Origin: Neisseria meningitidis
GTDB taxonomy: Bacteria; Pseudomonadota; Gammaproteobacteria; Burkholderiales; Neisseriaceae
DNA length: 64,000 nucleotides
Assembly (NCBI GenBank): GCA_923184405.1
Contig: OV299793.1
Coordinates: 1,462,028-1,526,027 of the forward strand
Direction: 5' to 3'
The stretch's first letter is position 1; each line of letters opens with the position of its first letter. Both the position numbers and the translations under genes were made by a program. The notes beneath the pieces are model-generated. The model was not told the origin of the DNA and did not search any database. It saw only the letters and a list, made by a program, of their open reading frames with translations. Positions 1 through 64,000 of the stretch are shown piece by piece.

Positions 1-107
1 GATATGCTACGTGAAATTAAATATGCCAAACAAGATAAAACCACACCAAAGACATTGACCAACTAAACTAGCAGGAGATGAGTCAGACAGCAGATTCGAT
101 CTGACAA

Positions 108-1443
108 AACTTATGAGAACGAATGACGCAGCACAATAAGCCTCGGAGCACTACAACAAAAGGGCAGACGATCCCGATCGACAGCCGAAAGACAGATCTC
201 CCTAAAGCGCCATTTCAAAGATGCTTTCCCTAAGAGGCAGGCAATGCGCAGGATGTTCCTTCACGCAGAAAAAGAATCTGAACGACATGCCAGCCATGGG
301 CTCGTGGAAATCCGGCTTACAGGTTTCAACGCATCGGAACCGCAAAGGCAGGATATCGGTTTTGCCGCCGTCGGGAAATTCGCTAGCCGACGCAAATATT
401 GATGGTTTCAACGCCGTCCATTACATCGAGTTTGGTAATGCACATACCGGAAATGCCAGGTTGATTTGGATGAGCGCGTTTCAGGGCGGCGGCATCAAAC
501 CAGCCCGCAGCGGCGTGCGCGGGAGGATACCGAGCCGAATTTCGTGTCCGCGTTCCGCCAAACCTGCGCCTACTTCGTCGAACAATTCGGTCAGGAACGG
601 GCCTGAACCGACGCGCGCGGTCATAGGCTTTGACGATGCCCAAAACATGTTAATCCAGCATTTGAGGACCTACGCCCGCGCCTCCAGAAGCAGCTCCCGC
701 CGCTTACAGTTGGACGAAGGTAACGAGACGGATAAGCGCCGTAGTCGATGTCCAACAACGCACCTTACGCGCATACAAACAGCAGTTTTTCGCCGTTTTT
801 GTTTTTCTCGTTCAACACGCGGGACACGTCGGTAATCATCGGCGCAATGCGCAGCGCGACGTCTTCGATAACCGCCATCACGTCTTCCGCTTTAACCGAC
901 TCGGCATTGTGCAGATGTTGCAGTTGGACATTGTAATAGGCAATGATGGCATCCAGTTTTTCACGCAGTTTTTCAGGATGCAGCAAATCGGCGGCGCGAA
1001 TGGCGCGGCGTGCCACTTTGTCTTCGTAGGCAGGGCCGATGCCGCGGTTTATCGTGCCGATTTTGCCTTTGCCGCGCGATGCTTCGCGGGCTTGGTCGAG
1101 CGCGATGTGGTAAGGCAGGATCAGCGGGCAGGTCGGCGCGATTTTCAGACGGCCTTCTGACGCTTTTCACGCCTGCAGCGTTTAACTCGTCGATTTCACC
1201 CAACAGGACTTCGGGGAGACGACAACGCCCGAACCGATGAAGCAGTCTAGACTTTCATGCAGGATGCCGCTCGGAATCAGGCGCAAAATGGTTTTTTGCC
1301 GCCGACGACCAAAGTATGACCCGCACTTGTGGCCGCCTTTGAAGCGCACCACGCCGCTCTGCTTCTTCCGCCAGCCAGTCAACGATTTTACCTTTACCCT
1401 CGTCGCCCCACTGTGCGCCGATTACTACAACATTTTTAGCCAC
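108..1443 (-). pseudogene. purA: adenylosuccinate synthetase, frame-disrupted
   Basis: PurA joins IMP and aspartate using GTP, the first committed step to AMP, in the cytosol. The N-terminus reads [19 protein letters not shown] with the GTP-binding GDEGKGK loop at about residues 13-19; the start is GTG at 1443-1441. Further on come [56 protein letters not shown] and [20 protein letters not shown], all PurA blocks in the right order but in different frames. The frame changes near 1370, 1215, 1160, 1010, 760 and 640. The last 100 bases are very degraded, so the end near 108 is approximate. hisZ lies 102 bp upstream on the same strand. The length fits the usual 432 residues. The family call is secure; function as written is lost. 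Confidence 0.9.
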
Positions 1444-1545
1444 AGCTACATAACCTATCGATATTAAAAATTATTGTGAAATCCCCAAACCGATGCGGCT
1501 TTGCGCCCCACCACGATTTGCCTTTCATCCGCCATGAACGAGTAT

Positions 1546-2730
1546 TTAGCGTTTCACGAACTGATAAACGCCGTCCGTCATGTTCAGACGACCTCCAAGC
1601 TCTTCCGAAACATTGTGTCCGATACCGTAGTCAACCACGAAACACTGCCCTTGTTCACGCAAGGCTTAGACTGCTTCGCGCGCACCTTCGGCATCTTCCG
1701 CATCGACCAACACGGCGGGCTGCGTTCGCTGGTGGGCAAACGTCCGATAAAGCTGCGCAAGTCGAAACTGAATCCTGTTGCCGGGCGCGCCCTGCCGAAA
1801 TATCCGCACAATCCGTCATAACGCCGCCGAGCGCGACCGCGTCGTGGAAATCGGCAGCATGGGCGGCATACAGCAAGCCCGTGTGGTAATTGTCGACACG
1901 CAGCTCGGACAAGTCGATATGCATTTCACAATCGAAGAATGCGTGCACACCGCCTGCAATTCGTCTAACGCGCCCAAGACCGCCGACAAATCCGGCAACC
2001 GTCCGCGCGCGTCGGCAACACTTCACGCCTGCCGACAGGCGCAACTACAACGAGAAAGCTTTTGCCCACATGCCGTCCAGCTTCCAAGCCTTGACCTGCG
2101 CTTCGACCGTCCCGGTATCTTTATCCTGCATCAAGGCAAGCAGCGTTGCGGACAGCCCCGCATCCAAATGCGCCGCATCGGACAAGGCGCGAATGTACCG
2201 ATATGCCCCAGCGAAAGCAGCACTTTGCCCATATCGGCAATTTTCATCTTTTCAGCATCAGGTCTATCAGCTCGATGTCGCCACGGATTCTGCAAAAACG
2301 TGCATAAGCAGCCATCCTGCTCACACAAAGCCGGTTCGCGCACATTCAAACAGACTACATCGAAATGCGCGTGCTAACACCGAATCGGCACAACACTAAC
2401 AGATCAATCCCGCCCTCCGGCGCATGAAACATGAGCAAAGATCACGCACAACCTACAGGTCCTCAGACTGACCAACGCCAAGGAACAACTCACCACCCGC
2501 TAAACCAGTCCGTTACCAAAATGCTCTTCATCCAAACTCCCGCATCAATATGCCTCAACCACGGACTCCTGCCAACTCAATCAGCGCAGGCTTAATACCA
2601 ATTCATAACAGTGTACGCGAGAGACAGAAGCCAACAACTGCTCCATCCGCGACCAAAAGCCCTGACCTGTCACAGACTGCGAAGGCAGTACGTCCGGCGA
2701 TATGAATCACGGAAGCTGCCATGTCTGCAT
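1546..2730 (-). pseudogene. hisZ: ATP phosphoribosyltransferase regulatory subunit HisZ, degraded
   Basis: HisZ is a catalytically inactive paralogue of histidyl-tRNA synthetase that activates short-form HisG in the first step of histidine synthesis. The start reads MQTWQLP and then a TGA. Recognisable blocks follow: HIDAG, MKIADMGKVLLSLGHIG, LSELRVDNYHTGLLYAA and GYFGRARPATGFSFDLRSF, ending in HNVSEELGGRL and a TAA at 1546. The half from about 2340 to 2730 (the 5' half) is almost unreadable and A/C-rich on the + strand; the 3' half has several indels. The span of 1185 bp matches a protein of about 383 residues. It probably shares a transcript with purA downstream and is divergent from norM. 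Confidence 0.8.
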
Positions 2731-3080
2731 GAGAATCTAACCACTACTTCAGCATCGTACCAACACGAAAGCCTGCCTCGATCCTGCAACCTAGGCAAGG
2801 CATGCTTTCCCGCAAAGGCGCACCAACCCCTGCTCTCCAAACGGCAACCCCTCTCCGCCGAGGCAGAATCCGAACGTAACCCCTCTCCGACAACTCAATG
2901 CAGTCAAGTCATGCGATTCAAACTTGCCATAAATACACACACAATCTGAATATACTTTTATACCCTGTATCCGCCGTCTGACAGCACAGCATTTTTTACG
3001 ATATAATGTGCACCAGTATTTCTCATCACTTCCTGCTGCCGTTTTCTGCTTCAGACGGCATTTTTGTTGATTGAACACTT
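2731..3080. other. divergent intergenic region hisZ / norM
   Basis: This is 350 bp between two divergent genes. It contains one complete DNA uptake sequence, TTCAGACGGCAT, at 3050-3061, about 20 bp before the norM ATG. The stretch 2740-2940 is C/A-rich with no convincing reading frame. No clear tRNA, terminator or sigma-70 promoter was recognised, although promoters for both flanking genes must lie here. Confidence 0.5.
3050..3061. repeat. single DNA uptake sequence upstream of norM
   Basis: An exact 12-mer uptake sequence in the orientation TTCAGACGGCAT. It has no inverted partner, so it is not part of a terminator hairpin. Confidence 0.9.
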
Positions 3081-4562: not shown

Positions 4563-5609
4563 ATGCGACCCATCCGATACCGTATCGAACTAACGGACTA
4601 AAACACGTTCGGAATTCGCGCTCAAGCCAGAGCCTTTATTGCGCTTGAACACGCCGACGGGTTGTGCGACATCGTCCGAATACACGAGTTCAAACGAGAT
4701 ACTGTTTTATGGCTGGACGGCGGCAGCAAAATCCTTTTGATGAAGAACTACGCTGGACTGGTCGTACATATGGAAAACAAAGGCATACGCGAAATTGCGA
4801 GTTCAGACGGCATGGTTCTGATTGAAGCGCAGGCGGGCGAAATTTCGCACGATTTTGTCCTGCACGCCGTCGCGCTGGGTTTGAACGGTTTGGAAAACCT
4901 GAGCCTGATTCCGGGAATGGTCGGCGCATCGCCCGTGCAGAACATCGGCGCATACGGCGTAGAGGCGAAAGATGTGATTCACAGCGTCCGCTGCTTCGAT
5001 TTGGATACGGAAACCTTTGTAAACCTTTCCAATGCCGACTGCCGCTTCGCCTACCGCGAAAGCCTGTTCAAGCAGCAGCGTAAAGGGCGGTATGTGATTG
5101 TTTCAGTCGTATTTGCATTAAAAACGCATTTTGTGCCGAACCTGGGTTACGGCGAACAGGCAGCCGCCGTTGCCGAACTGAGCGCACGCAGGGTGCCGAC
5201 GGCGAAAGATATTTCCGATGCAGTGTGTGCAATCCACAACAGTAAACACCCTAATCCTAACGACTTGGCAATGTCGGCAGTTTCTTCGAAAAACCCCGTC
5301 GTCAGCGCAGAAAAAGCCGCCACCTTGTTGCAGCGGCATCCTGATATGCCGCACCATCCGCAGCCCGACGGTACGGTCAGAACTCGCCAGCCGACTGGCT
5401 GATCGACCAATGTCGTCGCAAGGCTTCCAGAATCAGCGGCGCGGCGGTACACGACAGGCAGGCTTTGGTCGTAGTGAACAAAAACAATGTACTCGGCAAA
5501 ACGATGTCCGGCAGTTGGCGCAACACATCAAATTTACAATAGTTGCTCGGTTTCAGGTAGAGATTGCACGCCGAAACCAATTGGCTGCCTGCTTCTGTTC
5601 AGCCTACAA
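4563..5609 (+). pseudogene. murB: UDP-N-acetylenolpyruvoylglucosamine reductase, disrupted
   Basis: MurB is the FAD enzyme that reduces UDP-GlcNAc-enolpyruvate to UDP-MurNAc in peptidoglycan synthesis. From ATG 4563 the frame has a TAA at 4599-4601 (tyrosine expected) and is then open for about 230 codons. It holds VLWLDGGSKILL, ENLSLIPGMVGASPVQNIGAYG (FAD domain) and the catalytic-arginine segment FAYRESLF. Near 5270-5290 one base is lost and one gained, scrambling the segment with the catalytic serine (normally GSFFKNP). Near 5385 the frame shifts again; WLIDQC and RQLAQHIKF are still readable, ending HAETNWLPAS. The stop codon is replaced by CAA at 5607-5609. An essential single-copy gene elsewhere. 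Confidence 0.9.
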
Positions 5610-5620
5610 ATCCAAGGAGT

Positions 5621-6304
5621 ATGCCCGTGACCCGCCCCCCCAAAATCAACAACACACACACGCATCATCGACGCCAGCCTTGCAGCTTTTCAACGAGTGA
5701 AACCGAGCGCAACATCAGCACCAACCATATTGCCGCACACTTAGGCATCAGTCCAAGCAACAACTAGGTACCACCAAAGAAAAATAAGTCGTACACGTGA
5801 AAAGACATACGTACAAATGTTCTAAACCTTACAACGAAGCAACGGCAAAAATACCACAACCAAGCCAAACTGCCGTATGCATGACCAAGACTCGATAAAG
5901 AAAATGGAGTGTATATACCACGAAATACCACGCAATAAAACGAATCCAATAAAGCCACGTGCAACAACCTGCATGGACACGAAGTGCCAGAACCCATTAA
6001 GGAACACAGAAACCGACAAACCAAGACAAAGTATACCCGCACTTGATCAACCCGCGGACCCAGCTCAACGATGCAAAACATCATACAAGCTGACCAAACC
6101 GCCACGAACGAGCTCGCCGTCAATATGGAGATTTGAAAACGAAATACGGGATCAAAGACGATAGCTCCATGCGAGTGACGCACCAAGCTGACCGAAGACT
6201 CCAAAGCACGCGGCATCCGCCGCACCATAAGCCTCCTTCGTCCCTATCTTTTGCCCGAACACCGCGAGAAATACGACCGGAAAATCGGCAACGGCAACCT
6301 GTAA
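5621..6304 (+). pseudogene. TetR/AcrR-family transcriptional regulator, degraded
   Basis: An AAGGAG Shine-Dalgarno at 5614-5619 precedes ATG 5621, just after murB. The N-terminus reads MPVTRPPK and, after a frame change, an IIDASLQLFNE-like helix, then the helix-turn-helix ISTNHIAAHLGISPSN; the usual following segment (NLYYHF) is lost. From about 5770 to 6220 the sequence is nearly unreadable and A/C-rich. The C-terminal LLPEHREKYDRKIGNGNL and a TAA at 6302 close the gene at the size expected for TetR proteins (about 215-225 residues). The regulated target is unknown. Confidence 0.7.
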
Positions 6305-8696: not shown

Positions 8697-9453
8697 ATGA
8701 ATCCCAAAATTTCCTCCGACCATACAGAAGACGCCAGTGCGCCTCTCCAAACGCATGGCGCAACTGGGGCTTTGTTCGCGCCGCGAAGCCGACGGCTACA
8801 TCGAACAGGGCTGGGTAACGGTCAACGGCAAAACCGCAGTACTCGGTCAGAAAGTTTCACCGTCTGACCGTATCGAACTGAACAAGAAAGCCCAAGAACA
8901 GCAGGCGGCACGCAGTTACCATCCTGCTGAACAAACCCGTCGGCTATGTCAGCGCACAAGCGGAAAAAGGCTATAAATCCGCCGCCGAACTGATTACCCC
9001 TGAAAATCACTCGGAAGGCGACGCCGAACGCATCCGTTTCGATCCGAAACACAAAATCGGCCTCGCCCCCGCCTACAGGCTCGATATCGATTCAGTCGGA
9101 TTACTGGTATTGACGCAGGACGGCCGTATCGCCAAGCAGCTTATCGGCGAAAACAGCGGCAGTGAAAAAGAATATTTGGGCGCGTGCGCGGCAAATTGAC
9201 GAAAAAGGACTTGCCTACTGAATCACGGATTGAGTTTGACGGCGAGAAACTGCGTCCCGCCAAAGTAGACATGGCAAAACGAATACCAACTCAGCTTCGT
9301 GTTGAAACAGGGTAAAGCGCAAATCCGCTGTAAGTGCGAACTGGACGGACTGCGCGTCGTCGGGCTGAAACGCATCCCATGGGCAATACCAAACCGGAAA
9401 GCTGCCACCTGACAAATGACGCAAACAAACTCAAAGAGAATCATTTTAAATAA
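8697..9453 (+). pseudogene. rluF: 23S rRNA pseudouridine synthase, RluF/RsuA family, disrupted
   Basis: The protein has an N-terminal S4 RNA-binding domain (RLSKRMAQLGLCSRREADGY) and then the RsuA-type catalytic domain. The catalytic segment reads LAPAYRLDIDSVGLLVL, keeping the aspartate of the RLD motif but with Tyr where Gly is usual. LLNKPVGYVSA and SEKEYL are also present. The ATG at 8697 is joined to the S4 domain after a one-base loss near 8735; the frame changes again near 8915, 9180, 9265 and 9380. The 3' end (about 9380-9453) is low quality. A second, much more degraded image follows at 9985-10690. Confidence 0.8.
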
Positions 9454-9479
9454 GCAATATAAAACAGACCGTCTTAGAA

Positions 9480-9984
9480 AAACATCAAGAGCAATCACGA
9501 CAACATTGAACGAAGCATACCCAAATAACGGCTACTTCCAAGGGCCTAGCATCGCCTGGTGCGATTTCCTGAACAGCGGTTAAACGAATCTCGCAACGAC
9601 GGCACACATATGAACAAGCACTGTCACACCTTGCGTGGAATCAGAAAGAAATGGTGAAGTAGAGACCAAAGGAGTGCGGTGGGCTGATCTCACTCAATGA
9701 GCCTGACCCACCAAGAATCGTCAGGGCAACAAAAATCAAAGTCTCCGCACCAAACGTCATTTTCCCTATATTGATGTGTTGGTAGAACTCACTGAAGTTA
9801 TCCATACTAATGATGTGCACCATGTCACCATATGCCTTTAAAACCCTAAAAAATGCATGGGCAGTGCCAAAAACTATAGGATATCCCTTAGAACAAGATC
9901 AAGAAGCAAGAAACGCCTTAGACCAGGCTCAAGTAATGCACTTCTCAATACCTTGCTGAAAACTGGTGTCATGTTCTCAATCGC
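9480..9984 (-). other. degraded block, starting with a poor copy of the nfsB 3' end
   Basis: The stretch 9520-9600 aligns base for base, with many mismatches, to 10757-10838, which is the 3' end of nfsB: both contain AATAACGG, TTCCAAGGGCCT and TTTCCTGAAC in the same order. The rest to about 9984 has no recognisable coding potential. I read the block as the low-quality end of a sequence stretch that ran through the rluF/nfsB junction, not as a real gene. Confidence 0.55.
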
Positions 9985-10690
9985 CAATACGCGACGGCTA
10001 CATCGAACATAGCGGATAGGTCATCTATAATGACAAGGTCGCCTACTCGGACGTAAGCTACATGTGCCGAACGACAGTCATCAAGACAAAATCAAACAAG
10101 ACGTCACCACCAACAACACCCGGGCACGAACCAAAATCAAAAAAAAACCCGTCGGCTATGTCAGAGATAGCAAGTCGGAAAAAAGCTATAAATCCACACA
10201 GACAAATCAAGATGAAACACCATAAAGAACCCCAGCAGGAAAGAACAGACGCCAAAGCAGCATTCTCGTTATTAGATACGAAACACAAGGATAACCTCAC
10301 CCAGATGGCAGGTCTTGCTCATATCGCCCAGGCCCAGTCCGCACGAACCGTATTCACTGCAACGACGGCCGCATCGCCAACAAACTTATCGCCGAAAACA
10401 AGCCGGCACCTGAGAAAAAGGAAAATACAGTGCGCGTGCGCGACACAGTGCACAAAAAAGGACTTGCCATGCTGAATAACAGACAAGTGGGGACCACCAC
10501 GCCAAACTGGCGTCCCGCCAAGTACAATCCCAAACAAACACCAACTGCGAATCACACCGCTTGGAAACAGCAAAATAAGCGGAAAACACGCCGCATGGCA
10601 AATGGCAATACTCGTACGGCAAGAAAAACACGCATGCTAGCGCAAACTGGCAAAAGGCCGTTAAGCAATATTGCACTACAAATGCGAATA
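9985..10690 (+). repeat. degraded second image of rluF
   Basis: Short stretches match rluF 8790-9420 in the same order: GACGGCTACATCGAACA, AACCCGTCGGCTATGTCAG, AAAAAGCTATAAATCC, AAAAAAGGACTTGCC and GTCCCGCCAAAGTA. Between them the sequence is badly altered and no frame stays open. It improves to the right and ends in a clean uptake-sequence hairpin and then nfsB. The likely explanation is an overlapping contig end placed in tandem; an ancient tandem duplication is the alternative. Confidence 0.65.
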
Positions 10691-10706
10691 AAATAAGCAT
10701 TAAAAA

Positions 10707-10742
10707 ATGCCGTCTGAAAATAATTGCGGTTTCAGACGGCAT
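10707..10742. terminator. inverted DNA uptake sequences, bidirectional terminator
   Basis: ATGCCGTCTGAA at 10707 and its complement ending at 10742 form a 12-bp perfect stem. It lies between rluF (+) and nfsB (-), which converge, the usual place for uptake-sequence terminators in Neisseria. Confidence 0.85.
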
Positions 10743-10746
10743 TACC

Positions 10747-11418
10747 TTATGCACAAATAACGGTTTCTTCCAAGGGCCTGCGCACATTCATTGGCGTTTC
10801 CTGAACGCGGTAACCGAATATCGCGGCGACGGACCGCCCCATTCTGCCGCATCGAACAAACCAAACTGCCGGACAATACGCGTTCCATAGCGGCATAGTT
10901 GAAAACTTCCAACGGGCAGGAATCGAAACATGCCATCGCCACACCCGTCATCATGTTGCCCAACGCGATATGGGTCTGGCGGCAACACCAGTCAAACAAG
11001 GCGCGCGAATCGTCAAAATCTTGATGTCGTCGGCGAAACGCCTGATACCTCGCCAAAGATTTTGCCATGGCATCCGGTTCGGTAACGCCGCGCCGTTTGA
11101 GGCTTTCCAACATAAACGGGCTGTCGAAGCGGGCATTTTCTTTGCCAAAAACACCACCAAATGACTGGCGGCATCCTAAGCATCCACCATACCCGCAAGA
11201 AAACGGTCCAGAGTGCCTGTCGCAGTGCTAGGGTTTAGAACCACAACAAACGGACAAGAAACAAAACCAACAAAAGCTGGCCGTACAAAAGCCAGAGATG
11301 CTAAAACAAACTCAAAATCCTCAGCACTGATGTGACAGTGCCGAAACAGCCAAGTGACTCAGCATGATTTGCAGTTTTTAAATGCGGATAGAACCTGCTC
11401 TCTGTCTAATAACGTCAT
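10747..11418 (-). pseudogene. nitroreductase family NAD(P)H oxidoreductase, disrupted
   Basis: Blocks in order are MTLLDREQVLSAFKN (start ATG at 11418), ISAEDFEFVLA, ASHLVV, RFDSPFMLESLKRRGVTEPD, AMAKSLARYQAF, DDSRALFDWCCRQTHIALGN and QFGLFDAAEWG, ending RPLEETVICA and a TAA at 10747. This is the FMN nitroreductase fold of the NfsB/YfkO type; the ALGNMMTGVAMA helix is characteristic. A TGA follows the first 19 codons, and there are frame changes near 11150, 11020, 10880 and 10800. The N-terminal third (11170-11400) is of poor quality. Length matches about 220 residues. The physiological substrate is unknown. Confidence 0.8.
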
Positions 11419-13704: not shown

Positions 13705-14733
<1,029 letters not shown>

Positions 14734-20318: not shown

Positions 20319-21776
20319 ATGAACCTGCATGCACAGGACAAAACCCAGCATCCCGAAAACGTCGAGCTGCTCAGTGCGCAGAAGCCGATTACCGACTTTA
20401 AAGGCCTGCTGACCACCATTATTTCCGCCGTCGTCTGTTTCGGCATTTACCACATCCTGCCTTACAGCCCCGATGCTAATAAAGGTATCGCGTTGCTGAT
20501 TTTCGCTGCTGCACGTTGGTTTACCGAAGCCGTCCACATTACCGCAACCGCACTGATGCTGCCGATTCTCGCCGTCGTACTCGGTTTCCCGACATGGACA
20601 TCAAAAAGGCGATGGCTGATTTTTCCAACCCGATTATCTACATTTTTTTCGGAGGCTTCACGCTTGCCACCGCCCTGCATATGCAGCGGCTGGACCGTAG
20701 AATCGCCGTCACCCTGTTGCGCCTATCGCGTGACAATACGAAAATGACGGGTATGATGTCAATCCTCATTAACGAATTTCTGTCCATGTGGATAAGCAAC
20801 ACCGCCACCGCCGCGATGATGCTGCATCTAGCAATGGGTATACTGAGCCACTTCGATCAGGAAAAAGAACGCAAAACCTACGTCTTCGTCCTGCTCGGCA
20901 TCGCCTATTGCGCCAGCATCGGCGGTTTAGGCACGCTCGTCGGCTCGCCGCTCAACCAGAGTACCGCCAACAATAAATCCGACTTCGTCGGCTGGATGAA
21001 GCTCGGCCTGCCGATGATGCTACTGATTCTGCCCTAGATGCTGTTGCCTGAACATCATCCTCAAACCTGAAACTGAATAGAATTCGCGTAGCATTTAATC
21101 AAAGCAGCAATCTCAACCCTTGGAAGCTACAAATCGCGATCGCAGCCCTTGATCTTCCTTACTACATGCCAGCCAAAACAATATTCAGATCCAAAATCGA
21201 AACTACTTTAAGTATTTCAACAAATCACGCGTACACAGTTGATCGCCCTAAGGGCTTCGCCGTAGCCAGGCAGTCGGCTCGGCGTGGAACAAATGGAAGC
21301 GAAGACGACCGCAATACAGACTGCACCCTGTTAAAGCACAGCGGCCGCAGGCATCAGCCTGAGCAACACGTAACTGAACGAAGCAATACGCGCGTCCGAA
21401 GCCTTGGGACAGCAGGTTGCCGCCACCTTCCAGCGCGCCTGCATTTTTGGTGATACTATCGTCGCCGCCAGTTCAGATACGTATTGCTGGACCAAGGTCA
21501 ACAGAAACTACCGCCACAGCACATGAAATTAAACTTGTACAAATAAGAACAAACATAAACATGAAAAAGGAGCACCAGGAACATATATCCTGGTATTACA
21601 CATCGAAATCACCACACATTTGTGCATACCATAATGCTGATCGCCACACCAAATCAACGCAATTGTGTTTCCGCACGAAACTAATCAGCTAAACGCGGAA
21701 ATAATGAATGTCGGCATACTGCTGAACATCCTCTACGTGTATTGGTTGCTCTGTGACTTATGCTGTAATGATATAA
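20319..21776 (+). pseudogene. DASS/SLC13-family sodium-coupled anion symporter, 3' half degraded
   Basis: An inner-membrane Na+/dicarboxylate or sulfate symporter. After an AAAGGAG ribosome site, ATG 20319 reads MNLHAQDKTQHPENVELLSA, then FKGLLTTIISAVVCFGIYH, RWFTEAVHITATALMLPILA, NPIIYIFFGGFTLATALH, and FLSMWISNTATAAMMLHLAM with the SNT sodium-binding motif. A base loss near 20600 and others near 20700 and 20970 shift the frame. From 21040 to 21700 only scattered words survive (WKEV-, SGASEALGQQVAATF-like and APAFLVIL), ending with MNVGILLNIL and TAA 21774. The second SNT motif cannot be seen. Substrate unknown. Confidence 0.85.
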
Positions 21777-21798
21777 ACCATCGACCTAAACATCAAGA

Positions 21799-21828
21799 CC
21801 GTCTGAAAGAATATTTTTCAGACGGCCT
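21799..21828 (+). terminator. uptake-sequence hairpin after the DASS transporter
   Basis: GACCGTCTGAAAGAA and TTTTTCAGACGGCC form an inverted pair (left arm ACCGTCTGAA, one mismatch to consensus) 22 bp after the transporter stop. Confidence 0.75.
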
Positions 21829-21899
21829 TGAAGTAAGTCGTTCAGAAACAATTTGCTCAAACCAATTCAAGCAATCCCAACTCTAACGAAAGGAAACCC

Positions 21900-22405
21900 A
21901 TGATTATCCTGCACACCAACAAAGGCGACATCAAAATCGAACTCGATTTCGACAAAGCCCCCGTTACCGCCAAAACTTTGAGCAATACGTCAAAGACGCC
22001 GACGGCGTAATCTTCCACCGCGTCATCAAAAGGCTTCATGATTCAAGGCGGCGGCATGGATGAAAAAACATGAAACGGAGCAGAATCGCGACCATTTAAT
22101 CAGCGTCCAACGGCCTGCCCAACGATAAATACACCATCGCCATGGTACGCACTTCCGACCCCCCATTCCGCCAGCGCTGCAACTCTTCATCAACACCGCC
22201 GACAACGCTTTCCCTGAACTTCCGTTCTAAAGAGCTGTAACGGCAAAAACCGTCGTCCAAGACTGCGGCCATGCCGCATTCAGAAAAGTCGCTGACGGCT
22301 TTGACGTCGTCGATGCCATCGAAGCCCGCATCCACCAAACGCCACGGCTACCATGACGACGTACCGAGCGAACCTGTCGTCATCATTAAAGCCGAAGCGG
22401 TATAA
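21900..22405 (+). pseudogene. ppiB: cyclophilin-type peptidyl-prolyl isomerase, disrupted
   Basis: A cytosolic cyclophilin catalysing prolyl cis-trans isomerisation. From ATG 21900: [20 protein letters not shown], then VIFHRVI and GFMIQGGGMDE (the catalytic arginine and the Q-G-G motif), KYTIAM, FFINTADNAF in shifted frames, and ADGFDVVDAIEA near the C-terminus, ending at TAA 22403. Frame changes occur near 21975, 22027, 22060, 22170 and 22330. Length of about 168 residues is normal for PpiB. Confidence 0.85.
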
Positions 22406-22420
22406 ACTTACAATCTGAAA

Positions 22421-22447
22421 GCAGCCTGCACAAAGGCTGCTTTTTTG
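22421..22447 (+). terminator. rho-independent terminator after ppiB
   Basis: GCAGCC, an eight-base loop, GGCTGC and six T residues, 15 bp after the ppiB stop. Imperfect uptake-type motifs follow at 22449 and 22477. Confidence 0.85.
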
Positions 22448-22564
22448 TTTCAGGCGGCATAAAATCCAAGCACATATGCCGTCTGAACACCTCCCGCAAG
22501 CCTTCGGACAATGTTGCAACGAGTAAAAAACCTCCTTTCCTGAAACCGAAACGAGGGAACCATC

Positions 22565-24007
22565 ATGGCAAACATTGCACACGACATATTCAAAGCCTAC
22601 TGACATGAAAAGAGTCACACTCGGTAAACCGCTGAACGCACAAAACCGCACGAGCAGGATCCGCAAAACCATTGCCACCAAAGCCTCCGAAACGAAGACA
22701 TTACCTGCATCGCCCTCGGCCCCCAAAGTCACTTGAAAGCCCCCACCCTGCAAAGCACAAATAAAAAAAGGGTTTACAAATCAGCTAAAATCAAAGTCCT
22801 CAACGTCGGCAAGATGAACACACACATACACTACTACGAAACTATCAAGGAATGCTGCTGGCTAGCGGCGCGATGATGAAAGCAAGACACAATCTGCACG
22901 ATTACAACGGTTCACGAAATGATGCTCGGCGGCGACACGCTCGCAGGCGAAGCCATTCAAGAACTTTTAGCTATTGTTGAGAAAGACGGTTTTGCTGGCC
23001 ACCGACAAAACAAGGCAGCGTAACCGAAAAAGACATCTCCGGCGAATACCACAACAACATCATCGGCCACAGCAACCTCAAACGTCCGATGAAAATCGTG
23101 ATTAACGCGGGCAACAGTGTTAGGCGGCGTTTTGCCGAAAAACTCTACAAAGGATTTGGGCAATGAAGTAGCCAGAAATACGCTGCAAAGTGGACGGCAA
23201 TTTTCCTAATCACCACCTCCTGATCTTCCCAAACCCAAAAAACCTGCAAGATTTGATCGTTGCGCTGAAAAACAGCGATGCTGAAATCGGCTTGCTTTTG
23301 ACGGCGATGCCGACCGCTTGGGCGTGGTCACCAAAGACGGCAATATTATTTATCCCGACAGCCAAGTAATGCTGTTAGCCCAAGACATGATTCAGAACGC
23401 AAGCCTAAACTTGTCAAAATGATTTTTCCAAAGGCAAACCCACCAACCTGTAACTGACTCCTGAAGAATAAAGAACTGACGGAAACTAAAAATGTGATAA
23501 GACAAAAACCTACACAAAAGATTCATCAAATACGACACAAGAAATTAAAACCGGAGCACCAAATATCTGACTGAAACCGAAAGCACAAAACTAAAACAAA
23601 AAACGCTGGTGACACAATAGAAGAAAATCTGAGAAGAGGAAAAGCACGACTCATGGAAATCCTGTGCGCATCCAATAATCTAACCGGACCCTTAAACAAC
23701 CATGCAGTAAAGCAAGACCACGCAAGAACGCAACAGAAGTCCCCGCCCGACAGCGAAGTAAAACGCGGAACCACACTATACTGACCAACAATCCGCCAAA
23801 GCCGAAGGTGAATACTCAAACGAAATCATCACCATCGACGGTCTGCGCGTTGAATTTCCAGACGGCTTCGGTCTGATGCGTGCTTCCAATACCACGCCGA
23901 TTCAAGTGTTGCGTTTTGAGGCGAATACGCAAGAAGCCATCGAGCGGATTCAAAACCAATTCAAAGCCGTCATCGAAAGCAATCCGAATCTAACCAAACC
24001 TCTGTAA
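22565..24007 (+). pseudogene. phosphomannomutase/phosphoglucomutase, heavily degraded
   Basis: A phosphohexomutase of the AlgC/ManB type that interconverts hexose-1- and hexose-6-phosphates for lipo-oligosaccharide and nucleotide-sugar synthesis. ATG 22565 reads MANIAHDIFKAY and a TGA. Readable islands: MMLGGDTLAGEAIQELLAIV, EKDISGEYHNNIIGH, the metal-binding FDGDADRLGVVTKDGNIIYP near 23300-23360, and the phosphate-binding C-terminal IITIDGLRVEFPDGFGLMRA plus SNTTP, ending at TAA 24005. The middle (22600-22920, 23410-23810) is nearly unreadable; the phosphoserine TGSHNP block cannot be read. Length of 460 residues is normal. The manB or pgm name is uncertain. Confidence 0.85.
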
Positions 24008-24788: not shown

Positions 24789-25504
24789 TTATTTGGCGAC
24801 ATAACGGTCGAAACGTTTTCCAAACGTGCCTGAATCAGGAACAGAACCTTGCAAAAACACCAGTAAACCAAAGCGGCTTCGATATAGACGGGCAAAAAGT
24901 CATAAATGCGGTTTGCCGTTTCCTGCGCGACGCGGAATAATTCCGTTACCGTCACGACTGCCGCGAGCGAGGTGTTTTTAAACAAACCGATAAACTCGTT
25001 GCTCAAAGGCGGCACGGCAACGCGAAATGCCTGCGGCGCGACGATGCGGCGGAACGTCTGCATATAGGTCATACCGATGGAGAAACCTGCTTCCCATTGG
25101 CCTTTAGGTACGGACAAAATTGCCGCGCGTATGGTTTCGGAAGCGTATGCACCGACATTGAGCGAGAAGCCGATAATGGCGGCGGGAATCGGATCGATAT
25201 AGATACCGACGGAAGGCAGCCCGTAAAACACAATCACAAGCTGAACCAACAGCGGCGTACCGCGAATGACGGAAATATAAAATTCCACCAATTTCAGCAG
25301 GATTTTCCGCACGATGCCGCCGGCGGGCATAATCCGCACCAAAGCCACGGCTACCGCAATCATCATACCGATAACGAAAGAAGCTGCCGCCAAAGGCAGA
25401 GAGACCGCGAAGCTGGCTTTGACCATAGGCAAAAACGCGCTGACAATCATATCGGCGCGTGTTTCCGTCATAAACGGCAGCGAAGCAAGGAAATTATTGA
25501 ACAC
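24789..25504 (-). pseudogene. polar amino-acid ABC transporter permease, C-terminal frameshift
   Basis: An inner-membrane permease with four to five helices and the EAA-type loop QWEAGFSIGMTYMQTFRRIV. It starts with GTG 25504 (FNNFLASLPFMTETRADMIV), overlapping the stop of the binding-protein gene by 11 bp. It is open until near 24820, where a lost base changes the last residues; the expected stop is the TAA at 24789. Because of a separate lost base in the upstream gene, the two genes form one artificial open frame from 25702 to 24776. Confidence 0.92.
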
Positions 25505-26319: not shown

Positions 26320-26349
26320 TCTCTCCTGTAAAAAGTGTGCAAGTGCGGC

Positions 26350-26377
26350 ATTCTAAGTGAAATTGCGGCAAACACAA
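26350..26377 (-). promoter_or_regulatory. sigma-70-like promoter for the amino-acid ABC operon
   Basis: On the minus strand TTGTGT (26377-26372) and TAGAAT (26355-26350) are 16 bp apart, about 30 bp upstream of the binding-protein ATG and its AGGAGA ribosome site. This is a plausible promoter by spacing and sequence; no regulator site was identified. Confidence 0.5.
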
Positions 26378-26600
26378 AGAATACTTTTTTATATGGTTAT
26401 TCCAAATCGGAATGGAAAAGATATGCCGAAACCGCCGGAAGCGGAAATAAAGGGGGCGGGAAAGGCGACGGGCGGCACGAAACCGAAAAGCGGCATCAGG
26501 TATGCAAACGGCGGATTCACGCACGCCGTTCCGGCAAAATCCGCCTGCCGATTCGGTGCTATAATCCATCCGAAACAGATGACACCAAAAAGGAACATCT

Positions 26601-32628: not shown

Positions 32629-34010
32629 TTATTCCCTGCTGTCACGGCAAATATCGATGGCTTCCTGCAAACTCGAATCGCAGTAGATTTTCAGGTTCGG
32701 AAACTCTATAGCATTGCGCGGCATATCGCCTTTGGCGACGATGACGCGTTTGAAGCTGAGTTTGACCGCTTCTTTGAGCAGCTCTTGTCCGAAAGCGACG
32801 AGGCGGACTTCGCCGCTTAAACCGAAATCGCCGAAAACCACGGTTTTTTCAGGCATAGGGCGGTTGCGGAAGCTGGAAAGCATCGCGAGGATGACTGCCA
32901 AATCCGACGCACATTCGCCGATCTTCACGCAGCCGACGGCGTTGAGAAACACATTCTCTGATCGAAACAGGCGAATGCCGCCGTGCCAGTTTAACACGGC
33001 AAGCAGCATCGCAAGACGTTTTCGTTCCAGTCCGACGGTGAGGCGCTTGGGCGTGAAGCCGTGCGCGACATCGACCAATGCCTGAATTTCGACCACTAGC
33101 GGGCGGCTGCTTACTGTGCAACCAGAACGCACGAGCCGGTCGTAACGTCCCGCTAGCTGGCGAGTAAGTGGCTAACTGGTTCGACACACCTTGCCAGCCG
33201 CTCTCCGGCAGCGCCAACACGCCCAGTGTCGCTCTGCCGCGCCGAATAGCGGTTTTTGATGGCACGGACCAGGCGGTAGATCGAATGTTGGTCGCCCTCG
33301 ACATACAGCACAGTATCAACCATGTGTTCCAGCTCGCGAGAGCCAACATTCGCGCTGCCAGCGGTAACCTGTCCGACCAATATCATGCGATGCTCATCTG
33401 TTCCGCCATCGGGCGTAAGTTGCGCGGCACACTAGAGCACCTGCGACACGGAGCAAGGGGCGCGACGCGATTTGGTCGGGAATTCCTGGTTCGGATACAG
33501 CCGATGACGAGAACTCCCCGCCGATGCTGCCGCAAGCCGTCTGAATCGAAGCAAGACGGCACTTCGACGGCAGTGCCCAAACTACACGACGTGGGCACTT
33601 TCAAAAGTTGCGCAAGCACGGCGACCAAATCAGCACATTCATCACCGGATATGTACAAAACCAAACGGCTTTGCGCCAGTTTTGGCAATGGTTTACAACA
33701 GCAACAGCGATTTGCCGAAGCCCAGATCGCTGCCAATCTAAATGACCGCATCTTCGACCAAACTGCAGTCTAATACACGATCGAATTAGCACATACAAAT
33801 CTGATTGTGCGACACGTCGTTCGCCTAACTGCCAGAATATTGAACAATCCAAATATCAGCCTCCCAAGATTGTCGGGCCTATAACTGGCTAGGGCAGCGA
33901 CAAGGCTTTCCTGAAGCGTGTTCCAATCGCAGCAATGCGGGTATTAGCAATACCATTTCGTCGAACTGCCGCCTCACTTTGGTGCATTGGTAAAGGGTTT
34001 CAAGAGTAAA
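32629..34010 (-). pseudogene. radA: DNA repair protein RadA, 5' two-thirds degraded
   Basis: RadA is a RecA-like ATPase that processes recombination intermediates. The C-terminal Lon-like domain is clear from 33130 to 32629: RPLVVEIQALVDVAHGFTPK, RLTVGLERKRLAMLLAVLN, MPEKTVVFGDFGLSGEVR and NLKIYCDSSLQEAIDICRDS. Upstream blocks include AGSANVGSRELEHMVDTVLY. From 33380 to 34010 quality falls, but a GAVI-, GFGKS- Walker A image (33690-33750) and the bases around TTTCCTGAAGCGTGTTCC (33909) show that the gene continues to its N-terminus. The span of 1382 bp is the size of a complete radA (about 459 residues). A cleaner copy of the 5' part lies at 34150-34725. Confidence 0.85.
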
Positions 34011-34149
34011 TACCAGCGGTATTGCCTGCAAGGGAGAACAAAGATACAGTAAGAAAATAGCAACAGATGTGATTGCAAAAACAGGAAAACACGGTACGTC
34101 ATTGTACTCATCAGCACACGAGCAGAAATTGCCGCATTGACACAGCTAT

Positions 34150-34725
34150 ACAAAAACTCAGCAATACATAAACAGGAACTGAAGCATTTGAGAGATTAGA
34201 AGCAGGCCTGCATGAGGAGAGGCAGAGACTGCTTCTGCGGCCGTCTGAATCGCCTCCATGCGGATTTCGGCAAGCAGGTTCACACTTTCGTGGGCATAAA
34301 TTCCAACGTTGCGCTGCAAGAGGGGCGACCTGTTGGGCAGATTCTCGCCGGAAACGTACAGCACTTTGCGGCTTGTTATTTTGCAAATGGTTTGCAACAG
34401 CAGCGTGGATTTGCCGATGCCGGGATCGTTGCCGAGCAGGATGACCGCACCATCGACCAAACCGCCCAATACGCGGTCGAGTTCGCCTGATACCGGCTAC
34501 CTGCGCGCGGCACTTCGGTCGCGGTAACAGAGGAGAGGATTGACGGTCGAGGTATCCACGCTCAAGATTGAAGCGGGCGTTTTCGGCTCGGGCGCGGCCA
34601 AGCTTCCTGAAGTGTGTTCCACTGCACCAAGTGCCAGTGACATTTGCCCCGCCATTAAGCGTGGAAGTGCCATCGCATCTGCTCCAACATAGGAAAGAAC
34701 AAAAAGCGCCGTCTGAAAATAGGGA
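34150..34725 (-). repeat. second, cleaner image of the radA 5' part
   Basis: On the minus strand this reads GGLVDGAVILLGNDPGIGKS (Walker A) and TLLLQTI, KVLYVSGE, VNLLAEIRMEAIQTA, and upstream the zinc-finger linker region (SLAAPEP before GSGEL). It aligns at a nearly constant offset of about 700 bp to 33440-34010: for instance GCAACAGC, GATTTGCCGA and TCCTGAAG occur in both in the same order. Quality is best at 34250-34640 and falls at both ends. This looks like the end of a neighbouring contig that overlaps the previous feature. The N-terminal cysteine finger is only partly readable. Confidence 0.7.
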
Positions 34726-34907
34726 CCCTTGGCATTGCAATAAAACAACAACGCCCCCCTCAAAAACTAGCACGGATGAGATCCAGCAACATACGAACAC
34801 AGCCCCCGGCATCAGACGGCATACCGATACACGTGCGCATATTAAACGAACCGCCGTGATTACTTGCCCACCATCAGCTTCTAGGACGGAAAATCGGTCG
34901 ACTAAGC

Positions 34908-35954
34908 CTACGTACCGTGCAGGGATACTGCCGAACAACTCGTGTACGTGTCGACGCAAGATTCTCGAGGGTGAGAGACACGGCCGATGCCGTGTCTCGG
35001 AGACGCTAGGTATCCGAGGGCGAACATAGGCGCGCACGGACGTGCCCGCAGTCGACCGAAGGACGGACGGGTCGAAGTTGACCCGTGCAGGGCGATTCTT
35101 CGTTACCGAAGACGGCGGATGGGCCGAAGTCACCCCGCGACATCCTCAGTCAATGATCCCCAATGCCCCCGCCCCGATTGGGCCACCAGCCAGCCTTCAC
35201 ACCGCCGACTTAGCTACACAATACCAGCAACAAGCACGCGCCCGCGCTGCTGCAAAGTACGAGAACAGGCGACGAGCGCCGCATTCGATTTGAGGCTGAG
35301 ATTCGAGTCAGGCGACAAGCCCGCGGATCGCTATTACGACGCCCCAAGTGCCAAAATTCCACCACAACCGCCCCGCGGCGCTAAGCGTCGCGTAAAAAAA
35401 AACTAAAGCGAAGATTTCGAGTTAATGTTAGTAAAACGGGCGAAGGACAGAGGGTTTTGAGACAACAATTGCGGCAGCTCCATAATGCACTGAACGACTG
35501 AAACTTAAGCGACACGAACATCTGACCTGTAAGCAGCAGTAAATGCCTCAAACGGCAGAAGATGGTACACGGGCCACCAATAAACGCTGCAACTTCCGCG
35601 TCCAAAACTTAGGGATCCTCCCATCAGAATCGCGATGAGAGCCACCTTCGCATGCCGCGTTTGAAATCCACACCCAAGCCTTCAAATTAAAGAAACAAGC
35701 CCAAACGTTTCGCGAAGACGGTCAGGATGTCGGAAAAATAAATCGCCGCGTCCAAACCAAGCGTTCCAAAGTTGAAGGAAAAGCTCCCAATTGAAAAGTG
35801 CCACATTTGAACAAATCGCGATAGCCCGACATCGAAGTGTCTTTGTATTCGGGCAGATAACGCCCCGCCTGTCACATCATCAAAATCGGCGTGTATTCGA
35901 CGGGCTGTTTGAGCACACGGCGAGGAGCAGCTAACTTTTTTAAAAAGCAGTCAT
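34908..35954 (-). pseudogene. hemE: uroporphyrinogen decarboxylase, heavily degraded
   Basis: HemE decarboxylates uroporphyrinogen III to coproporphyrinogen III. The N-terminus (35950-35690) reads VLKQPVEYTPILMM, then a TGA where Arg is expected, and QAGRYLPEYK, the substrate-binding RQAGRY block, followed by LDAAIYFSDILTV. Near 35085 VNFDPSVL and near 34945 RILRRHVHELF resemble the C-terminal GNFDP and AKILVDTVHELS blocks. The middle (35100-35680) is nearly unreadable. The ATG at 35954 and stop near 34908 give the usual size of about 354 residues. It lies between radA and hemY on the same strand. Confidence 0.75.
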
Positions 35955-37243: not shown

Positions 37244-37255
37244 GCGCGTTCTCCT

Positions 37256-47876: not shown

Positions 47877-48016
47877 TCTGGCACACAGGGCGGCGCGTCG
47901 GGAACACCCTCAAACCGCCCTGATTTCAGGGGCACACGCCCGCAAACAAATTTTGCAATTTGCCGCCTTAAAACAGTTGTACAGACAGGCGGGTTTTTAA
48001 GCAATAAGGAACAACA
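47877..48016 (+). other. intergenic lepA-lepB, no feature recognised
   Basis: A 140-bp G/C-rich stretch rich in short inverted repeats (for example GGCGG and CCGCC around 47892-47925). I saw no uptake sequence or convincing terminator in it. The broken end of lepA reads through part of it. Confidence 0.35.
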
Positions 48017-49038
48017 ATAAACACAATGCTAATGAAGGACGCGGCAGCCGCAATGTTTGCAAGCGTCATCATTTATTTAAAAAGCAACAAAAAAACTCCG
48101 GAAAACAGTGAATCGATTTCCAGTTAGGAATAAGCCTATATACTGACAGAGGTCAACGAGTTTGCCCCTTTGTCACTGTTCATGAACTTAACCGCACGTA
48201 TTACATGATTATCGTTGTATTGTACGGTACGGCTAGAGGCGCACTCTAAATACCGCCTATAGATCAACCCGAAATCACGGAAATCAGCGACTTCAAAGAA
48301 TATTTCGACCATTCTAGCCAACCATTATGGAATAGTTCCTCACCAGGTCCTTTATTGCCGTATCGTTCCAAATTACATCCAGATCGAAGCGCATGGGCAT
48401 GATAAATGGCGGTTTCAATTTGGCCGGCAAAATTTCCTAAGGCCTGCGCGTACCCGATTTAAGCACTATATCTATTCATGCAGTAAGAATCCAACGGAAA
48501 AATCTCATTATTTTTACATTATCCTATGCAACCAGAGATGAACTACATCAAGCGTATTCTCGGCATTCCAAGCGATGTGGTCGAACATAGGGATAAGATT
48601 CTCACGGTAGACGGCAAACCAACTTCCGAAATTCCAAACGGCACATACCGTTATCCCGACGACAAAGACCATTCCGAAATCCACAATACGGATATGTTCC
48701 ACAGCGGTTTAGACGGCAAATCCTTCAACATTCTGAAAAAAGAAGGACAGCCTGCCATTTCCCTGCCCGTATTGGGCAAATACAACTCCGATATTATGTC
48801 TGAAAACGGATATTCCATAGAGCAAAGCGGTTTGGAACACTGACAATATGCCGACGACGGCAGCGGTTTCGTGTGCAAAGTTCCCGAAGGACGCTATTTC
48901 GCTATGGGCGACAACCGCGACAACAGTGCAGATTCGCGCTACTGGGCATTTGTGGATGACAAGCTGGTTGTCGGCAAGGCAATGTTCATTTTGATGAACT
49001 TCGGCGATTTCGGCAGGGCCGATACGGCAATCCGTTAG
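48017..49038 (+). pseudogene. lepB: signal peptidase I, start codon lost, 5' half degraded
   Basis: LepB removes signal peptides at the membrane. The expected ATG reads ATA at 48017, after an AAGGAAC site. The first 500 bp, with the two membrane helices and the catalytic SSSM region, are very degraded. From 48535 the periplasmic domain reads MNYIKRILGIPSDVVEH (the lysine-general-base block), PNGTYRYPDDKD and KSFNILKKEGQPAISLPVLG. After a TGA at 48841 (Cys expected) come [20 protein letters not shown] and [13 protein letters not shown], the conserved box E. It ends at TAG 49036. Length of 339 residues is normal for Neisseria. Confidence 0.88.
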
Positions 49039-50260: not shown

Positions 50261-50351
50261 CCCCGGCTGCACCCGGACAAACGGCTGATTTTACGGGCAG
50301 GCCGACTATTTTCCGTTGGGGCAAAAACCGTCCTGCCGGATAAAACCAGAA

Positions 50352-50506
50352 TATAGTAGATTAACAAAAACCAGTACAGCGTTGCCTCGCCTTAGCTCAA
50401 AGAGAACGATTCTCTAAGGTGCTGAAGCACCAAGTGAATCGGTTCCGTACTATTTGTACTGTCAGCGGCTTCGTTGCCTTGTCCTGATTTTTGTTAATCC
50501 ACTATA
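50352..50506. mobile_element. Correia repeat enclosed element, full length (155 bp)
   Basis: TATAGTAGATTAACAAAAAC at one end and TTGTTAATCCACTATA at the other, with the same internal GAGAACGATTCTC and GGTGCTGAAGCACC as the copy at 27559. It lies between cysK (ending 50659) and the EamA gene on the minus strand. Confidence 0.93.
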
Positions 50507-54427: not shown

Positions 54428-56552
54428 TTACTCGGCGGCATTTTCCTCACGGGCAGGCGCGTCCAGCAGGGCTTTGATGGACAGACGGACACGGCCTCTG
54501 TCGTCCACTTCCAATGCTTTCACGTTCACCACCTGACCGACTTGCAGGTAGTCGCCGACATTGCGTACGCGCTCGTGGGCGATTTGGCTGATGTGTACCA
54601 AACCGTCTTTGCCCGGCATCACGCTGGACAATCGCGCCGACATTGTTGTCGAGGATTTTCACCACAGTGCCTTCTGTACACTTTGCCCACTTCCACTTCG
54701 GCAGTAATCTGCTCGATGCGTTTTTTCGCCGCATCGCTGGCTTCTTGAGTGGTTGCGGGCAATGGTAATCGTACACGTCTTCGGCAATATTGATTTCCGT
54801 ACCGGTTTCAGCGGTAATCGAACGGATGGTTTCACCGCCCTTACCGATAACTTCGCGGATTTTGTCTTGGCTGATTTTCATCGTGAACAAGCGTGGCGCG
54901 CGTGCGGACAGCTCTTCCAGGCCCGCAACGGCGGCTTTCATCTGATCCAAGATGTGCAGACGCGCCTTTGGCCTGTGCCAAAGCGATTTGCATAATTTCT
55001 TTGGTAATGCCTTGATTTTGATGTCCATTTGCAGCGCGGTAACGCATTCTGGTCACACCGCAACAATTTAAAGTCCATATCGCCCAAGCGGTCTTCGTCG
55101 CCCAAAATGTCGTCGGTCAGGACGGCAAATCTTCGCTTGCCTTCCAGAATCCCAGACCCATCGCGATACCGACAACGTTGCTTTCAAAGGCACGCAAACA
55201 GACAGCAGGCTCAGGCAGCCGCCGCAGACGGAAGCCATAGAGGAAGAGCCGTTGATTCAGCAATTTCGGAGACCACGCGCATGGTGTAGCTGAAATCTTC
55301 AGGTTTCGGCAATACGGCCAACAATGCACGTTTAGCCAAACGGCCGTGACCGATTTCACGGCGTTTCGGTGCGCCCATGCGGCCCACTTCGCCGAGAGTA
55401 CGGCGGAAAGTTGTAGTGCAGCATAAAGCGGTCGGTGTATTCGCCGGACAGCGCGTCGATGATTTGCTCGTCGCGCGAAGTACCCAAAGTTGCAACGGCC
55501 AAAGCTTGGTTTCGCCACGGGTAAACAATGCAGAACCGTACGTGCGCGGCAATACGCTGGTTTGATGTTCAGCGGACGGACGGTGCGGGTGTCGCGGCTG
55601 TCGATGCGCGGTTGGCCATCCAAAATTTGGCTGCGGACGACATCGGCTTCCCGCGTTTGAAAATGCCTTTGATTTCGTTGGCTGCCAAAGTGTCGGTTTC
55701 TTCGCTAATCAACGCTTCTTTCACGGCATTCCAAGCTTCGTCCAACTTGGCAGAACGCGCTTGTTTTTGACGGATTTTGAACGCTTTTAATGGTTTCGCT
55801 TAAGAATCCCGCGGACTTTGGCAACCAGTTCCTCATTGGTTTCAGGTGCTTTCCAATCCCAAAGTTCCGGATTGACTTCGTCGGCAAATTCATTGATTGC
55901 ATTGATGGCAACCTGCATTTGATCGGGCCGAAAACCACCGCGCCCAGCATCACGTCTTCGGGCAGGATTTTGGCTTCGGATTCCACCATCAACACGGCTT
56001 TTGAAGCACTTACGACCACCAAGTCCAATTGCGATTTAGCCAATTCGGCTTTAGTCGGATTCAAAACGTACACGCCGTTTACATAACCCACGCGTGCCGC
56101 ACCAATCGGACCGACAAAACGGTACGCCGCTCAACACCAGCGCGGCAGATGCGCACAACATTGCAGGAATATCGGAATCGATTTCTCGATCGACGGACAC
56201 AACCATCGCTACGACTTAGAAGTCGTGATAAAAACCTTAAAAGAAAAACAAACAAATAGTAACATAAAACATACGCTGGTCGGCACAGTGCTAAAGAGCA
56301 TAATTCAACTCCAAACAAAAAGAAACAAACCTGAAATTCGCAAGCTACATAAATGCGTTCAAGATAATCGACAGTCATAGCGAAGAAGACTTGACCTTAT
56401 ATCACTTCACAAATGGTGGTAACGGCAACCAAAAACACGGTGTCTACAATAGATACTTTAACGGCAGCAGCCACTTGGCGAACGACTTCGCCGGTCTCCA
56501 AAGAAACGGTTTGAATACCGCATTAGAAAGAATCAACGTGTTAACTGAACAT
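54428..56552 (-). pseudogene. pnp: polynucleotide phosphorylase, many frameshifts
   Basis: PNPase is the 3'-5' phosphorolytic exoribonuclease of RNA decay. ATG 56552 is followed by MFS and a TAA, and the first 350 bp are badly degraded ([12 protein letters not shown] and [16 protein letters not shown] are readable). Then [78 protein letters not shown] and the KH motif [20 protein letters not shown]. The S1 domain [20 protein letters not shown] and [20 protein letters not shown] is open to 54428. The expected length is about 706 residues; at least ten lesions. Confidence 0.92.
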
Positions 56553-56743
56553 TATTGTTCATATGAAAATACCGCACTGCTAAAACGCAAATAATGCACA
56601 CTAAAAGACGAATTTGCATAGTTACAGATTCAGACCGTACGGCAGGTTATAAACAAGCTTTCAGACGACACTCCGGACGCTGAAAACAACCCCCGATTAT
56701 AAAGGCAACCATCCCCAAAATCCAGTATTGATACAATAAAAAG

Positions 56744-58719: not shown

Positions 58720-58772
58720 TGCCGCCCGCCTCTCCATTTCCGCCGTCAAGCACCCCCTTGGCGGTTTTCTTA

Positions 58773-58879
58773 TATAGCTGGATTAACGAAAACCAGTACG
58801 GCGTTGCCTCGCCTTGCCGTAACTATTTAAACTGTCTGCGGCTTCGTCGCCTTGTCCTGATTTTTGTTAATCCACTATA
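58773..58879. mobile_element. Correia element, short internally deleted form (107 bp)
   Basis: It begins TATAGCTGGATTAACGAAAA and ends TTGTTAATCCACTATA like the two 155-bp copies, but lacks their middle third, including GAGAACGATTCTC and GGTGCTGAAGCACC. This matches the known short class of the element. It lies just after rmlD. Confidence 0.9.
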
Positions 58880-59162
58880 AAATCTACCGATACCAAACAC
58901 ATATCATCTTTACTTTACACAATCATGCTTCCATCAACAGTAAAACATGATATGATTGCCACCAATAACATCTCACAATAAATTTTCTAATTTTTATTGA
59001 AAAATCAATAAATAACAATTCTCCCAACAGACAAATAAAATAAAGAAAGGTTAATATGCAACATCGAAGAAGACTAGCAATTTACCAAGCATCCAAACGT
59101 GCTTCGCTTCTACAGCAAGTCATCCGCCCCACAAAAACGTAAAGAACGTTGATTTGAAAAAA
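58880..59162 (+). other. AT-rich region with a possible 28-codon reading frame
   Basis: The 58880-59050 stretch is unusually A/T-rich. AAAGGTT at 59046 precedes ATG 59056, which reads MQHRRRLAIYQASKRASLLQ and stops after 28 codons. The composition is basic. It may be a small gene, a remnant or chance; nothing else was recognised. Confidence 0.25.
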
Positions 59163-62873: not shown

Positions 62874-63167
62874 ATGACAGCTAAAGGACAAATGTTGCAA
62901 GATCCCTTCCTGAACGCCCTGCGTAAAGAGCACGTTCCGGTTTCGATTTACCTGGTCAACGGCATCAAACTACAAGGTCAGGTTGAATCTTTCGACCAAT
63001 ACGTCGTTCTTCTGAGAAACACTTCCGTCACCCAAATGGTTTACAAACACGCCATTTCCACCATCGTACTGGAACGCTCCGTCAACCTACAACATGAAAA
63101 CAGACCCCAAGCCGCACAGACTTCGACCCTCATCCAAGTGGAAACCGTCCAGCAGCCTGCCGAATAA
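62874..63167 (+). CDS. hfq: RNA chaperone Hfq, intact
   Basis: Hfq is the hexameric Sm-like protein that matches small RNAs with their target mRNAs. From ATG 62874, preceded by a GGAG site (62862-62865), the frame is fully open to TAA 63165: 97 residues, the normal size in Neisseria. [20 protein letters not shown] and [20 protein letters not shown] form Sm1, and YKHAIST lies in Sm2 (the conserved YKHA). The tail is Gln/Glu/Val-rich. With hemB it is the only lesion-free gene here. Confidence 0.97.
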
Positions 63168-63250
63168 TCCGCACGAAGCATGACGTGTCATATCTTTCAA
63201 TACCTTACCAGACATCAGTAAGGTATTTTTATTTTCAGACAGCATTTAAA

Positions 63251-63815
63251 ATGTTATTGCAAACATCCTTCCATTCGCCCATTGCCTTTTGCGGAAGGCA
63301 CTTCCCGAAGGCGGCAATGCACTGGACGGCACCGCCGGCAACGGACACGACACCCTTTTCTCGCACAAACCGCAGGCATCCGGGGGAAAGTGTGGGCAGT
63401 CGACATCCAGCCGCAAGCCCTGAACAACACTCGATGCCGTCTGCAGGAAGCAGGTTACAAGCAATGTACGGTTCATCTTGGACGGACATGAAAACCTGAA
63501 GCAATATATTCCAGAGCCGCTGGATGCAGCCATTTTCAATTTCGGCTGGCTGCCCGGCGGGGACAAAAGCCTTACCACCCGCACGGAAACCAGCATTGCC
63601 GCCCTTTCTGCAACCTTATCCCTACTGAAAGAAAACGGTATGCTTATTGCCGTCCTCTATCCGGGACACGAAAACGGCAAACAGGAGGCAGAAGCCGTCG
63701 GACAATGGGCAAAAACCTGCCTCAAGAACAGTTTGCCGTTTTACGTTACGGCTTTACCAACCGGAAAAACAACCCAACCTATCTGTTGGCATTTGAAAAA
63801 CTACGTCAAAAATAA
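63251..63815 (+). pseudogene. class I SAM methyltransferase, MnmM/YtqB (rRNA_methylase) family, frameshifted
   Basis: ATG 63251 reads MLLQTS. Then an ALDGTAGNGHDT-type SAM-binding loop in shifted frames near 63320-63350, KVWAVDIQPQALNNTRCRLQ, and an open stretch GHENLKQYIPEPLDAAIFNF, GWLPGGDKSLTTRTETSIAA and MLIAVLYPGHENGKQEAEAV. The FNFGWLPGGDK segment is characteristic of the family (Pfam rRNA_methylase), which modifies tRNA wobble uridine in some bacteria. It ends LAFEKLRQK at TAA 63813. The substrate is inferred from the family only. Confidence 0.8.
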
Positions 63816-63868
63816 CTGTTTGCGGTAAAATAAGCCGATTCAAACCCTTATTTTGATAAGAGCCGACC

Positions 63869-64000
63869 ATGCAGTATCTGTTTGTCAAATACAGCCACCA
63901 AATCTTCGTTACCATCACCATTTTGGTATTCAACATCCGTATTTTCCTACTTTGGAAAAATCCATAAAAGCCCTTGGTCGGCTTTTGGAAGGCACTGCCA
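63869..64000 (+). pseudogene. SirB2-family membrane protein, N-terminal part, cut by the window end
   Basis: ATG 63869 reads MQYLFVKYSHQIFVTITIL and a hydrophobic helix, then a TAA at about 63965 within NP, and KPLVGFWKALP. The pattern K-Y-x-H-x-x-F at the N-terminus fits SirB2 proteins, which are small integral membrane proteins of unknown function. The gene continues beyond the window. Confidence 0.6.

Follow-up and report, generated by a model that had tools for sequence, protein, structure and literature searches.

Frameshifts and stop codons across a 64-kb Neisseria chromosome segment are, almost certainly, mostly errors in the record

Problematic assemblies with 'many frameshifted proteins' are described in a passage by NCBI staff (PMC10228379), and platform indel errors have been linked to apparent pseudogenes and frameshifts in a passage of a review (PMC10978663). 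The window analysed here (the whole stretch of 64,000 bases) resembles the problematic assemblies of the first of these passages in combining sequencing or assembly faults with many apparently frameshifted genes (PMC10228379), but differs from what that passage describes in that substitutions in alphabetical direction and unmerged contig overlaps are added to the indels. The record fits among these known many-frameshift assemblies, and its broken genes are very probably not a biological feature. Reductive genome decay, which occurs in host-restricted bacteria, also produces many broken reading frames. The window shares this trait, but its housekeeping genes are equally broken, and its lesions are patchy, directional with respect to the letters and mostly missing in relatives. 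Among the titles and abstract openings listed in literature searches, none mentions the sequence record itself.

Blastn and lesion counts show the window (1..64000) to be part of a Neisseria chromosome and to contain errors along its whole length. Compared by blastn with stretches of five Neisseria genomes, its order is collinear with the relatives from end to end, with a coverage that excludes bases 1-209 and the stretches near two joins discussed below. Identity to the close relative G021, the nearest genome, is 98.15% in the cleanest columns (10,264 columns), a favourable figure since these columns were picked for having few private differences nearby, and falls to 77.9% in the noisiest columns. 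In the same cleanest columns, identity is 94.2-94.5% to three other genomes and 89% to a fourth. Named matches of the uroporphyrinogen-III C-methyltransferase come from Neisseria meningitidis, N. blantyrii, N. viridiae, N. polysaccharea, N. bergeri and others, and these relatives point to the N. meningitidis group. No tRNA or tmRNA was found in the window by ARAGORN, no Rfam match reached the gathering score, and the piece at 4600-5400 has no near match among phage records.

Genes were defined on G021 and then projected onto the window, and the 54 genes with a coverage of at least 95% were scored. This gene set was chosen for third-position change among relatives, and hence an excess at third positions in the relatives is a criterion and not a result. 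Only one of the 54 scored genes, hemB (porphobilinogen synthase; 13705..14721, minus strand, in a clean stretch), is free of both frameshifts and in-frame stops by this lesion count. The remainder carry 698 lesions in total, of which 604 are frameshifts (in 51 of 54 genes), a figure that depends on the alignment because neighbouring indels in noisy stretches are counted separately, and 94 are in-frame stops (in 31 of 54 genes). By the same count, the lesion-free genes in four relatives number 37 of 54, 42 of 54, 42 of 53 and 28 of 49, with 49, 29, 21 and 53 lesions respectively, part of which are probably due to gene starts placed too early in G021. The hfq gene (62874..63167, plus strand) was checked separately; it is intact, with a frame open over 97 residues and a score above the NCBIfam Hfq cut-off. 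Two of 55 genes are thus free of lesions, in agreement with the original prediction, in which hemB and hfq were the only such genes among about 55.

That prediction also named ten genes as broken. Eight of these (murB, nadK, ftsH, pth, holB, lepB, purC and pnp) could be scored and every one carries lesions, while purA (93% covered) and hemE (29% aligned) fall below the coverage rule and stand outside the count. The names given to all ten are borne out by NCBIfam, for nine of them on the relative's copies and for pnp on the fragment in the window, which scores below the family's whole-protein cut-off. Essential genes are not spared, contrary to what is expected of reductive decay. Alignment of the broken genes to relatives, which had been proposed as a check, finds most of them intact at the matching places in four relatives. 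For a frameshift-fused open reading frame (P0003), none of the best 120 of 427 hits among cluster representatives, from which the record itself is absent, covers more than 84% of its length, a weak test, so that this single lesion may still be shared with other records.

The differences from the relatives are distributed in patches. In a survey of 200-base bins covering the window apart from about 25201-38400, private changes amount to 0-3% in many bins and 8-33% in others, and the patches appear by eye to be independent of gene function and gene borders. Noise patches lie at 2401..3000 (13-20% of the columns on which the relatives agree altered in each 200-base bin), 5601..6200 (9-22%, with insertions), 20601..21800 (7-18%), 22601..23800 (8-27%), 48001..48600 (19-20%, in the lepB region) and 56201..56600 (16-33%, at the end of pnp). 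The hemE region (34600..35750, minus strand), with about 62% identity to that of the relative, is a noise patch adjoining the second join. When 46 genomes of the genus were compared with the noise-rich piece of 3.4 kb at 20600-24000, the best had 80% identity to it over its full length, and among the matches listed higher percentages are confined to pieces of less than 200 bases. Codon positions 1, 2 and 3 are changed at 21, 22 and 24% in the noisiest columns, an even spread in which no selection on protein is visible. Among the most corrupted stretches are some that align at 50-60% only, so that letter counts there are unsure.

Lost bases behave differently in low-noise and noisy stretches. 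In low-noise stretches there are 184 single-base losses, with a rate of 1.7 per kb outside runs and 38 per kb in runs of at least five, a 22-fold increase with run length, and 102 of the 184 lie within runs of three or more. The 45 losses in noisy stretches show no increase with run length. The earlier observation that single-base losses near base runs are common thus holds in the low-noise stretches but does not extend to the noisy ones. Relative to G021, inserted bases (756) outnumber lost bases (492).

Two stretches of the chromosome are duplicated, with their copies adjacent. At the first join (8697..11100, near 9830-9890), about 14085-15228 of the relative's stretch appears in two copies, of which the left (window 8697-9827) has 95% identity, dropping to 53-60% at the join, and the right (from 9891) begins at 62% and climbs to 93-100% from 10743 onward. 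At the second join (33502..34860, near 34165-34221), the copies at 33502-34165 and from 34221 onward both correspond to about 37700-38343 of the relative's stretch, and the right copy has 80-87% identity for 400 columns and then 53-71%, with no improvement away from the join. The alignment scores of the doubled stretches far exceed those of shuffled controls. These doubled and corrupted stretches look like low-quality contig ends that were abutted without merging.

The substitutions have a direction. In the 52,466 reference columns where four relatives agree, changes private to the window go to an alphabetically earlier letter in 2188 cases and to a later one in 587, whereas each relative compared with the other three is near balance (536:478, 547:564, 481:431 and 547:514, earlier to later). 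Where the local density of differences is at least 0.25, the changed fraction is 4% for a true A, 24% for C, 34% for G and 32% for T, and at densities of at least 0.15 the bias is toward the earlier letter in each of the six letter pairs, with p values from 1e-50 to 9e-6. Cellular mutation is blind to the alphabet. If the first letter were written wherever a base was undecided, on the other hand, an excess of earlier letters would result. A model of this kind with four parameters, in which uncertainty between two letters yields the first letter and full uncertainty yields A, was compared over the 24 possible priority orders, and the best is ACGT (A over C over G over T), with a deviance of 23.7 on 8 degrees of freedom against 123.1 for the next best order. 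Competing models with random letters of skewed composition (five parameters), a bias to A only or symmetric change have deviances of 126.4, 191.4 and 787.7, and the fit of the first-letter model is the best by far, though imperfect. The ratio of earlier to later letters is 779:202 over plus-strand genes, 414:77 over minus-strand genes and 253:65 outside genes, and 67:32, 131:41, 129:37 and 178:50 on both sides of both joins. The direction is therefore tied to the plus strand of the record, contrary to the expectation for reductive decay.

These observations bear on three other readings of the record. Real decay of the genome of a host-restricted Neisseria, in which most genes would have been lost by mutation, is in keeping with the frameshifts and stops that are widespread in the letters. 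It would, however, require that housekeeping genes such as ftsH, murB, holB and pnp had been broken many times over, that changes had gone to earlier letters on the plus strand of the record irrespective of gene strand while the relatives show no direction, and that two stretches had been doubled side by side and corrupted at the join, and it is hardly conceivable. The original warning that a decaying genome is a misleading reading of this DNA was correct. An over-calling of A by the base caller, with no ordered first-letter rule, would account for the changes to A being the commonest and for an A content of 0.27 in the window as against 0.24 in G021. Yet the corresponding models fit far less well (deviances of 191.4 for A only and 126.4 for skewed random letters, as against 23.7), and a true A becomes C in 1.9% of cases while a true T does so in 7.5%. 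Furthermore, the direction is the same on both sides of both joins, where opposite read tails would be expected to give complementary biases, and this explanation is considered improbable.

A mixture of strains or species that was co-assembled, with conflicts written as the first letter, is in line with the spectrum, as conflicting reads would yield the same first-letter pattern. However, the 2775 changes sit at columns that are unanimous in four relatives, the noisiest columns lack the preference for third codon positions expected of conflicts between living strains, and frame-breaking indels are numerous, so that a mixture appears very improbable, if somewhat less far-fetched than decay. Decay, a plain A bias and a strain mixture were all ranked low on the spectrum and the codon positions.

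The reading preferred here, which we regard as almost certain, is that an ordinary part of a Neisseria chromosome was poorly determined in the window and that the frameshifts and stops are mostly errors. The attribution to sequencing or assembly error, made originally from the sequence alone, is backed by the intact genes of relatives, the direction of the letters, the losses in runs and the doubled joins. The observed collinearity, lesion counts, directional spectrum, run-length effect and doubled stretches at two joins could be accounted for as follows. Reads of low quality, and probably low depth, would have given rise to indels, notably losses in base runs, and to many undecided positions. 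The latter would have been written as the alphabetically first candidate, through the resolution of ambiguity codes or the breaking of ties in a consensus, and contig ends of very low quality may have been placed end to end, with overlaps unmerged, in a record of chromosome length. The read depth, the read type and the letter-forcing software step are what we infer from these patterns.

The broken genes exist in the letters but very probably not in the organism, and the living strain is presumably free of most of the lesions. A few lesions in the window may be genuine, as the relatives also carry some by the same count, and there is a small chance that a minority of those in clean stretches are true inactivations in the strain, masked by errors. 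Users of the record risk inferring pseudogenes and gene losses that are false and antisense proteins that are spurious. A case of the last kind is the noise-made open frame of 340 residues that runs antisense across the second join and the adjoining noise (34111..35133, minus strand). A search of a protein collection with this frame yields, among 2267 candidates, a single match at E <= 0.001. The match is identical over the full length, stands for one sequence on a single contig of 2,265,090 bases and is apparently the frame's own record. Loss of T on the plus strand removes stop codons on the minus strand, which would explain such antisense frames. Testing whether substitutions run in alphabetical direction, with relatives as the control, is a cheap way to recognise records in which undecided bases have been forced to one letter.

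Short sequence elements were also recorded along the segment. Exact copies of the Neisseria uptake word GCCGTCTGAA number 44 in the window, whereas the corresponding spans of five relatives contain 63 to 72, and a lower count is what the destruction of short words by errors would produce. A repeat some 155 bases long, which resembles Correia-type repeats, is found at 27559-27713 and 50350-50506, with further copies in the relatives. Judged by breaks in the blastn alignments, the copy at 27559-27713 is missing at that place in four of five relatives and present in G021, and the copy at 50350-50506 is missing in three (G021, G016 and G010). At 58772-58882 lies a shorter repeat, some 108 bases long and perhaps a short form of the Correia-type family, which has matches elsewhere in the relatives too.
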